Of a stretch of 64,000 nt of DNA, positions 23,457 through 25,255 are shown one piece after another. The notes below the pieces were generated by a model. It was given only the letters and a program-made list of their open reading frames with translations. It was not told where the DNA came from and did no database searches. The first letter of the stretch is position 1. Each line of letters starts with the position of its first letter. The translations under genes and the position numbers were made by a program. This DNA is from Gallionellaceae bacterium (GTDB lineage Bacteria > Pseudomonadota > Gammaproteobacteria > Burkholderiales > Gallionellaceae), in assembly GCA_019753125.1 (NCBI GenBank), contig JAIELH010000023.1, forward strand, positions 1-64,000. Direction: 5' to 3'.

Positions 23457-23825
23457 TTGAAACTACACCTGTCCAAGCTGGGCGACACCAAACTATTCAC
23501 CGCCTATGGCGCAGACCATGTCGCCGTCAACGGCGAACGCTTCGAGCGCAGCGTCGCGGTGCAGGCGGAAGAAGTGCGCAGCGATTGGGCTGCTGCCAGT
23601 TTCGACGCGCTGGATGAAACCCACTTCACCTGTTTTCTGGCGTCCAGGCCGGACGTATTGTTGCTCGGCACCGGCGCGCAGCAACGCTTCGCCCATCCGC
23701 GCCTGTACCGTGCATTGACCGATGCGGGCATCGGCGTAGAGTGCATGACCACCCCGGCAGCCTGCCGCACCTACAACATCCTGGTGGCGGAGGGACGCAA
23801 GGTGGTAGCGGCGATTTTGTTGTAG
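23457..23825 (+). CDS. Mth938-like (DUF498/Xcc1710-like) domain protein
   Basis: The 122-aa protein matches the small Mth938/Xcc1710 family of unknown function: DVLLLGTGAQQRFAHPRLYRAL and GIGVECMTTPAACRTYNIL. Members are about this length. It starts with TTG at 23457, chosen because GGAG lies 7-8 bases upstream and the product then begins KLHLSKLGD. It is transcribed divergently from alaA, so the 144-bp gap 23313-23456 should contain both promoters. Members of this family often sit near respiratory-complex or secretion genes; nothing here fixes a role. Confidence 0.85.
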   Translation: MKLHLSKLGDTKLFTAYGADHVAVNGERFERSVAVQAEEVRSDWAAASFDALDETHFTCFLASRPDVLLLGTGAQQRFAHPRLYRALTDAGIGVECMTTPAACRTYNILVAEGRKVVAAILL

Positions 23826-23836
23826 CACTCTCAATA

Positions 23837-23909
23837 ACCGTTCGTCCCGAGTACCGCGCATAGCGCGGTGTATCGAGGGAAGTAGCCCGCATAGCGGGCG
23901 TATCGAAGG
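23837..23909 (+). repeat. Palindromic repeat, left of the GIY-YIG gene (double hairpin)
   Basis: The element reads ACCGTTCGTCCCGAGTA, then stem CCGCGC-ATA-GCGCGG (23854-23868), then GTATCGAGGG. A second stem follows, GCCCGC-ATA-GCGGGC (23885-23899), then GTATCGAAGG. An inverted copy with a third stem sequence lies at 24264-24303. Confidence 0.85.
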
Positions 23910-23931
23910 ATGACAACAGGAGGAACAAAAT

Positions 23932-24309
23932 TTGGCTTTCTGGGTTTATCTACTGCGTTGTGCCGATGATTCATACTATACCGGCCACACAGACAACCTT
24001 GAGCAACGCATCGGTGAGCATCAGTCCGGAGTTTGCTCAGGCTATACAGCCAGTAGATTGCCTGTTAGCTTGCTCTGGTCACAGGAATGCGCAACACGCG
24101 AAGAAGCATTGTCAGCCGAGATGCAAATCAAAGGTTGGAGCCGCAAGAAAAAAGAAGCAATGATGCGCGGTGATTGGGCGGGTGTTGCACTTCTGGCTAA
24201 AAAAACTTTGAAAAAACAGCCTATAAACCTCCTGAAAATTGATATATCAATACGCCCATTCTCCCTTCGATACGGCGCTATGCGCCTACTCAGGGCGAAC
24301 GGTCACTAA
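23932..24309 (+). CDS. GIY-YIG endonuclease-domain protein framed by inverted repeats
   Basis: The 125-aa product begins with the GIY-YIG core: WVYLLRCADDSYYTGHTDNLEQRI (YLL and YTG replace GIY and YIG), then the conserved Arg in QRIGEH and Glu in AEMQIKGWSRKKK. It resembles the UPF0213-like group of small stand-alone GIY-YIG proteins. The TTG start has AGGAGG nine bases upstream. The left repeat ends 22 bp before the start. The right repeat encodes the last 15 or so residues (SLRYGAMRLLRANG), so the natural C-terminus may have been extended. A relation between the nuclease and the repeats is possible. Confidence 0.88.
   Translation: MAFWVYLLRCADDSYYTGHTDNLEQRIGEHQSGVCSGYTASRLPVSLLWSQECATREEALSAEMQIKGWSRKKKEAMMRGDWAGVALLAKKTLKKQPINLLKIDISIRPFSLRYGAMRLLRANGH
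24264..24303 (-). repeat. Palindromic repeat, right of the GIY-YIG gene (inverted copy)
   Basis: On the minus strand this reads ACCGTTCGCCCTGAGTA, stem GGCGC-ATA-GCGCC, GTATCGAAGG. It is the inverse of the element at 23837-23909, with the same flanks and loop but a different, still perfectly paired stem. Confidence 0.85.
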
Positions 24310-24322
24310 CTTATAGAACGCC

Positions 24323-25255
24323 ATGAACCCATCCCTGAACAACGTCATCCTCCAAGCCGAACAAGTCATCGCCGGCAAGCCGCAGCAGATCCGGCTGGCA
24401 CTCACCTGCCTGCTGGCGCGCGGCCATCTGCTGATCGAGGATCTGCCCGGCGTCGGCAAGACCACGCTGGCGCATGTGCTGGCGCGCACGCTAGGCTTGC
24501 AGTTCCAGCGCATCCAGTTCACCAGCGACCTGCTGCCCGCCGACATCCTCGGCGTGTCGGTGTACCAGCGCGCCGGCTCCGATGCCACAACCGGAAAATT
24601 CGAATTCCATCCCGGCCCGATCTTCGCGCAGATGATCCTGGCAGATGAAGTGAACCGCGCCACGCCGAAGGCGCAGAGCGCGCTGCTGGAAGCGATGGAG
24701 GAACAACAGGTCACGATCGAAGGCACGACACGCGTGCTGCCCGCGCCATTCTTCGTCATCGCCACACAGAACCCTGCCTATCAGGTCGGCACCTTCCCGC
24801 TGCCGGAATCGCAACTCGACCGTTTCATGATGCGCATCCGCATGGGCTACCCGGACGCGCAGGCGGAACGCGGCCTGCTCTCCGGCACCGACCGGCGCGA
24901 GATCGTCGCCCGGCTCGAGCCGCAAATGGAAAGCGCGGAACTGCTGGCGTTGCAGCAGCGCGTCAAGGCAGTGTTCGTCTCGTCCGCGCTGCTCGACTAC
25001 CTCCAGGCCATCCTGCGCCACACGCGCGAAGCGGCGCACTACGCCCACGGCCTCAGCCCGCGCGCCGGACTCGCGCTGCTCTCCGCTTCGCGCGCCTGGG
25101 CGCTGATCGACGGGCGCGACGCGGTGCTGCCGGAAGACGTGCAGACCGTGCTGCCCGGCGTGGTCAGCCACCGGCTGCAAGCCGTCGGCGAACGCTCCCG
25201 GCTGGACAGCGATGCGCTGGCACGCGAACTGATCGAAGCGGTGGCAATCCCATAA
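24323..25255 (+). CDS. MoxR-family AAA+ ATPase
   Basis: The 310-aa ATPase has Walker A LPGVGKTTLAH (residues ~38-48), Walker B LADEVNRATPKAQSALLEAMEE (~107-128) and sensor 1 VIATQNPAYQVGTFPLPESQLDRF. MoxR proteins act as chaperones for metal-binding or VWA-domain protein complexes. It is followed after 4 bp by a DUF58 protein and then a TgpA-type transglutaminase, the widespread MoxR-DUF58-TgpA operon. The ATG start is preceded by a plain leader without a strong ribosome site. Confidence 0.93.
   Translation: MNPSLNNVILQAEQVIAGKPQQIRLALTCLLARGHLLIEDLPGVGKTTLAHVLARTLGLQFQRIQFTSDLLPADILGVSVYQRAGSDATTGKFEFHPGPIFAQMILADEVNRATPKAQSALLEAMEEQQVTIEGTTRVLPAPFFVIATQNPAYQVGTFPLPESQLDRFMMRIRMGYPDAQAERGLLSGTDRREIVARLEPQMESAELLALQQRVKAVFVSSALLDYLQAILRHTREAAHYAHGLSPRAGLALLSASRAWALIDGRDAVLPEDVQTVLPGVVSHRLQAVGERSRLDSDALARELIEAVAIP

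Follow-up and report, generated by a model that had tools for sequence, protein, structure and literature searches.

A small GIY-YIG nuclease gene and a hairpin repeat with a constant GAG..TCGA core co-occur throughout one protein clade, across phyla. We identified the pair in a 64,000-nucleotide stretch of a Gallionellaceae genome (contig JAIELH010000023.1, referred to as the window), where a 0.47-kb unit holds the gene between inverted copies of the repeat. Because relatives in many bacterial groups carry the same hairpin type at their edges, nuclease and hairpin look like a travelling enzyme-target module. The protein is probably an Ssn-like single-strand nuclease that travels with its own target hairpins, in architecture a GIY-YIG counterpart of the RAYT/REP system; we infer both the cleavage and the mobility. 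Fetched loci are numbered below with the prefix L and surveyed genomes with the prefix G.

The nuclease gene and its hairpin repeats

The window protein belongs to the GIY-YIG superfamily, with a PF01541 match at E 5.2e-18 (65.6 bits against a Pfam cut-off of 22.6) and with conserved Tyr, Arg, and Glu residues. Y6, Y16, R26, and E63 are invariant in an alignment of 19 rows, and we presume that they have catalytic roles. An NCBIfam search with the window protein returned no family. The only PDB matches of the clade profile at E 0.01 were 1zg2 and 1ywl (E 6e-21 and 7e-17), which resemble the window clade by this profile match and belong to the UPF0213 GIY-YIG proteins, a group for which we know of no link to repeats. 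The window's own genome (a 2.47-Mb assembly in 97 contigs, 88% complete) encodes two more small GIY-YIG proteins, which share 44 and 48% identity with the window protein. Their genes lie behind genes that we take to be lnt-like, and no repeats were found near them.

Table 1. Features of the nuclease cassette and its flanks in the window
Feature	Position	Strand	Sequence	Basis and remarks
Upstream neighbor, presumably Mth938-like	23457-23825	+		Left flank of cassette site
Cassette unit	23837-24303			0.47 kb
Left repeat, full copy	23837-23879	+	ACCGTTCG TCC CGAG - apical hairpin ACCGCGC/ATA/GCGCGGT - GTATCGAGGG	
First left hairpin	23853-23869		ACCGCGC-ATA-GCGCGGT	
Left repeat, second partial copy	23880-23909	+	AAGTA - GCCCGC/ATA/GCGGGC - GTATCGAAGG	
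Second left hairpin	23885-23899		GCCCGC-ATA-GCGGGC	
Shine-Dalgarno-like motif	23919-23923	+	GGAGG	Sequence; just past left repeat
GIY-YIG nuclease gene, 125 aa	23932-24309	+	Start TTG	ORF list, Pfam PF01541
Right repeat, inverted	24262-24303	-	ACCGTTCGCCCTGAGTA - GGCGC/ATA/GCGCC - GTATCGAAGGGA	Overlaps the gene's 3' end
Downstream neighbor, presumably a MoxR-like AAA ATPase	24323-25255	+		Right flank of cassette site

The initial annotation had placed the gene between inverted elements and had described three different stems, all perfectly paired and each with the loop ATA; the sequence bears out both descriptions (Table 1). Of the two left hairpins, the second belongs to an incomplete copy, in which GTATCGAAGG is present and the GTTCG..GAG half is absent. 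DNA folding gave z-scores of -2.5, -3.0, and -2.3 for the three hairpins. That the right element encodes the last residues of the protein is true of the window and is not a general feature, as the nuclease gene of a Nitrosomonadales metagenome-assembled genome (MAG), L099, stops before its repeat. An RNA family was rejected as the identity of the region because no Rfam family scored above gathering in 23700-24500, the best being LPR69 at 23.1 bits against 40. This subthreshold match to a Legionella RNA lies at 24270-24344 and overlaps the right repeat.

The pattern GTTCGNCCNGAGN{4,40}TCGANGG has three matches in the own genome, two of them at the nuclease gene, and its reversed control has none, so the window repeats are not a product of chance. 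The third match is a short-apex inverted dimer, a gene-less head-to-head pair at position 8110 of contig 34 (L003 1499-1565). A looser pattern gave four matches. With only three or four copies under the two patterns, the own genome gives no sign of spreading.

Paired changes preserve the hairpin

Across loci, the general element consists of an arm, GAG, an apex, TCGA, and the complementary arm. A short loop (CTTG, CCTG, GTA, or CGAAG) or a further hairpin (GAGTA-stem-loop-stem-GTATCGA) forms the apex. GTAG REPs are marked by an unpaired GTAG tag next to the stem. Here, GAGTAG directly precedes the stem in many copies with a long apex, as in G178, and GTAG is absent from copies with a short apex (GAGCYTGTCGA).

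Covariation of the stems had been proposed from the window's three copies, which are too few to establish it, and is borne out by 228 distinct copies, namely those keeping GTTC..TGAG..TCGAA in an early set of the fetched loci. The main arm types among these are CCC/GGG (77 copies), TCC/GGA (38), TGG/CCA (30), TGC/GCA (23), and GGC/GCC (14). Arm positions 2 to 4 form Watson-Crick pairs in 618 of 684 cells (shuffle mean, 362; maximum, 398), and in G178, where 68 of the 93 matches were listed by place and gave 53 distinct copies, apical stems pair in 255 of 265 cells (shuffle maximum, 213); as copies are related to one another, the shuffle figures are not strict probabilities. Arms and apical stems covary, and the hairpin is kept by paired changes. 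In a motif-free count of stems of at least 6 bp, GAG and TCGA stood just inside the stem in 32 of 1,294 cases near the gene versus 1 of 2,040 far away. In single-stranded DNA, the two paired stems would be separated by the GAG/TCGA core, with two tandem G-A mismatches, a single G-C pair, and an unpaired, bulged T.

Linkage of the nuclease clade and the repeat

We analyzed linkage in the best 80 of 568 confirmed relatives from a profile search of named-genome contigs. The general hairpin lies within 300 bp of the gene in 78 of these 80 loci and on both sides in 57, versus 27 of 286 control windows taken from those loci (600 bp per control window; the near windows, with about 300 bp to either side of the gene, cover slightly more in total). 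L148 and L174 fail the general-hairpin rule and were counted as misses. The strict motif occurs within 300 bp in 54 of the 80, missing variants that are visible by eye. A tighter rule (arms of at least 5, 250 bp) was satisfied at 58/80, at 4/7 and 6/9 loci of the order, and at 0/15, 1/30, and 0/29 controls.

The general rule found the hairpin at 10/10 window-clade loci of the order and at 6/6 loci of a second clade, and among controls at 0/15 weaker GIY-YIG loci, 1/17 of the lnt-linked kind, 1/30 Y1_Tnp loci, and 1/29 MoxR loci. The 15 weaker GIY-YIG controls exclude L026, L028, L030, and L032, weak matches with the repeat that form the second clade. One locus of the lnt-linked kind, L070, has a repeat copy nearby.

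Judged from record titles, hosts of the best 80 relatives include Beta-, Gamma-, and Alphaproteobacteria, Thermodesulfobacteriota, Sulfuricurvum, Leptolyngbya, Chloroflexota, and Dependentiae, several of the cross-phylum hosts being MAGs, in which binning errors are possible. Phyla are also intermixed in a tree built from 90 columns of 123 small GIY-YIG domains, in which 64 of the 120 inner branches are open. The window clade comprises 91 rows, 89 with the hairpin, which is also present in all 6 rows of the second clade and in 1 of 18 rows of the lnt-linked clade; in a fourth clade, 5 of 8 rows have CGTC-type repeats. The hairpin labels require 6 changes on this tree versus a shuffled mean of 25.5.

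The four second-clade loci named above (from G115, G266, G295, and G173, respectively) carry their GIY-YIG domain in frame inside an HsdR-like helicase gene. The embedded domain lies at about 1501-1785 (L030 345-629) and is accompanied by the repeat-derived peptides PEPVEG and PEPVAV. Pfam on L032 gave ResIII at 39-162, GIY-YIG at 200-271, SWI2_SNF2 at 309-380, and EcoEI_R_C at 631-788. The Pfam scans covered L032 and a piece of L026, and L028 and L030 were judged from their flanks by eye.

Adjacent stand-alone copies tend to lie head-to-head, as they do around the gene: 21 of 26 pairs in G049 and, among the matches listed, 21 of 27 in G178. The initial annotation suggested that the nuclease might recognize, process, or spread these hairpins, as RAYT proteins do for REPs; repeat copies are arranged around the nuclease gene as at RAYT genes. 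With RAYT/REP (GTAG) systems, REPINs, and BIMEs, the window system shares a gene between inverted hairpin repeats, dispersed head-to-head pairs, covarying stems, and a scattered distribution. The enzymes differ, however: RAYT/REP systems have a Y1 (HUH) transposase, whereas the window system has a GIY-YIG protein and a constant GAG..TCGA core inside the hairpin. The window system therefore matches RAYT/REP in architecture, with repeats on both sides of the gene and head-to-head pairs, and not in its enzyme.

Copy numbers across the order

We surveyed 299 genomes of the order besides the own genome, defining a close nuclease as a match at E 1e-19 or better. A close nuclease was present in 12 of them, from 6 families. 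At least one strict copy of the repeat was found in 11 of these 12 versus 48 of the 287 others (Fisher p 8e-8), and at least five copies in 8 versus 25 (p 3e-6). Copy number and nuclease presence, which the initial annotation had proposed to compare, are thus associated, but many repeat-rich genomes are without a close nuclease. Abundant copies in genomes with no nuclease gene, which had been named as evidence against a link, do occur in part: a close nuclease is present in only 8 of the 33 genomes with at least five copies, and G049, with 82 looser-arm matches, has UvrC as its sole GIY-YIG match. G169 (91 matches) and G258 (40) are also repeat-rich without a close nuclease; the single GIY-YIG match of G258 is again UvrC, and G169 encodes fourth-clade GIY-YIG proteins. 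Based on these counts, repeats nearly always accompany a close nuclease but often persist without it.

Such genomes are what would be expected if another enzyme, a RAYT or some other transposase, had spread the repeats and the nuclease were a passenger that landed between two copies. Y1_Tnp is also commoner in genomes with at least five copies (28 of 33 versus 153 of 267 others; p 0.002), a mild association. The passenger reading is nevertheless unlikely, since the general hairpin lies within 300 bp of 1 of 30 Y1_Tnp loci in 17 repeat-bearing genomes (30 loci fetched of 51 places listed), with the strict motif within 1.5 kb of none, versus 78 of 80 nuclease loci. In addition, no Y1_Tnp was seen in 5 of the 33 genomes with at least five copies (G251, G026, G036, G074, and G263). 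We therefore rejected a RAYT as the driver.

Copy numbers also bear on whether the hairpins serve solely to control expression of the nuclease gene, one forming a 5' untranslated region hairpin and the other a terminator. In many loci the left copy starts about 40 to 60 bp before the match start and the right copy starts about 11 bp past codon 90, positions that would suit such signals. Tens to hundreds of copies lie elsewhere, though, with looser-arm matches numbering 217 in G198, 93 in G178, 77 in G035, 72 in G125, and 60 in G046, and the conserved GAG/TCGA core does not resemble a terminator. We therefore consider this explanation very unlikely.

The cassette site

A family search for the MoxR-like gene found it in 43 of 60 genomes, and 30 loci were fetched, one of which is the window. 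The upstream neighbor is kept in 21 of the other 29. By tblastn, the nuclease is at none of these 29 loci, including the 21 with the gene pair kept, and a motif search found no repeat in the spacer before MoxR in any of the 29. Spacer lengths in relatives range from 10 to 441 bp, with two close relatives at 12 and 15 bp. The cassette thus occupies a site that is empty in relatives, and gain in a common ancestor is a simpler reading than precise loss elsewhere.

L099 carries the cassette at the same site, with one left hairpin of a different stem; the second left partial copy of the window is absent. The arm base is T-A in L099 where the window has C-G, so at least one arm pair has changed on both sides at the same place. 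By eye, the L193 spacer contains a partial left half copy, CCGTTCGTTCCGAGTGCCGCG, and other small inverted repeats are visible in the same spacer in L180, L202, L194, L206, and L193. Repeats may use the spacer before MoxR as a landing place.

Homing is a frequent role of GIY-YIG enzymes, and the nuclease could be a homing endonuclease, with empty repeat pairs as the sites that it cuts and into which its gene is copied. The gene does separate the two arms of a head-to-head pair that is empty elsewhere, for example, on contig 34 of the own genome. However, at the one site examined, empty sites do not carry the target: a motif search found no empty repeat pair in the 21 nuclease-free gene-pair loci (L193 has its partial half by eye), so gene and repeats were either gained together or lost together. 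Homing is accordingly an improbable account.

Carriage by plasmids was rejected, with a best identity of 55% among 11 plasmid records. Phage carriage was likewise rejected: all 23 phage records fall below 60%, the best listed being 50%, and among 10 viral-contig loci only L238 aligns through residue 92, at 51%.

CGTC REPs and another nuclease clade

A profile of the fourth clade, hereafter the CGTC clade, matched in 47 of 300 genomes of the order, and we examined 30 loci, which include L079, L080, L095, L096, and L249-L265. CGTC REPs were present at 24 of the 30 and the GAG/TCGA hairpin at none, and control windows had CGTC REPs in 5 of 58. Six of the 30 loci had been used to build the profile, 5 of them with CGTC REPs, and the remaining 24 have CGTC REPs at 19. 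The window clade shows the reverse contrast, with the GAG/TCGA hairpin at 78 of 80 loci and CGTC REPs, scored as a CGTC (or TGTC) tag immediately ahead of a perfect palindromic stem, at 1 of 80. The window repeats are therefore not CGTC REPs.

Site-specific single-strand GIY-YIG nucleases with NTS repeats, the Ssn family (Chenal et al. 2025), have reportedly been described in Neisseria, where the Ssn/NTS pair is said to modulate transformation. By that description, Ssn resembles the window system in being a small single-domain GIY-YIG protein with matched genomic hairpin repeats, with repeats near the gene. The reported genomic hallmark, a small GIY-YIG protein with a cognate repeat, clade by clade, is present here, which makes the window protein Ssn-like in its genomic setting. 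Literature searches with the repeat strings and FDRLRANG-type peptides found no paper, and searches on Ssn, dRS3, GIY-YIG, and REP found nothing on point except REP papers; the Ssn paper was outside the scope of both.

According to Di Nocera et al. (2013, PMC3733652), CGTC REPs are short palindromes that form head-to-head dimers, are not linked to a RAYT, and apparently lack a dedicated transposase; the Neisseria dRS3 repeats belong to them. By that account, CGTC REPs resemble the window repeats in their short palindromes, head-to-head dimers, and lack of a RAYT (PMC3733652). They differ in their constant bases and adjoin another group of GIY-YIG genes. The comparison with Ssn has a limit, as the dRS3 repeats of Neisseria are CGTC REPs and the proteins found here at CGTC REPs branch apart from the GAG..TCGA window clade.

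These parallels suit a reading in which a resident nuclease of the Ssn type regulates DNA uptake or genome dynamics by cutting repeat-bearing single strands during transformation or repair, with the repeats kept as marks and with neither nuclease nor repeats moved by it. In its favor are the reported role of the Neisseria pair in transformation and the position of the CGTC clade at CGTC REPs, the repeat type that includes dRS3 (PMC3733652). In sphingomonads, several cassettes share a common upstream gene end by eye, which also suggests long residence rather than movement. By itself, this reading leaves unexplained why the cassette layout is inverted, why the site is empty in the 21 loci that keep the gene pair, and why the distribution crosses phyla. 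We regard it as plausible, if short of likely.

Proposed mechanism and implications

Under the preferred reading, a nuclease travelling with its target hairpins, 23837-24303 would be a cassette that joins a small GIY-YIG nuclease of the Ssn kind to its own recognition hairpins, one per end and inverted. The nuclease would bind the folded GAG..TCGA structure when DNA becomes single-stranded, as on the lagging strand, during DNA uptake, or in an extruded hairpin. From the reported Ssn work and the architecture, it would then cut beside the bound hairpin. Cutting and repair could carry the cassette and gene-less repeat pairs to new places, much as RAYTs are thought to spread REPs. Cutting may help to control DNA uptake, to spread the cassette, or to do both.

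More broadly, and tentatively, there could be a second class of REP-like systems that use small GIY-YIG nucleases instead of RAYTs, although we hold this general form with more doubt than confidence. Each clade would have its own hairpin superfamily, the gene with its end repeats would be a mobile element, and gene-less pairs would be its miniature derivatives. If true, such a GIY-YIG-driven class would answer the published question of why CGTC REPs occur without a dedicated transposase. Two repeat superfamilies are tied to two GIY-YIG clades, and the GAG..TCGA core is directly testable in vitro. If the protein cuts the hairpins, the family would offer many natural single-strand cutters with predictable targets, along with a model for repeat spread.
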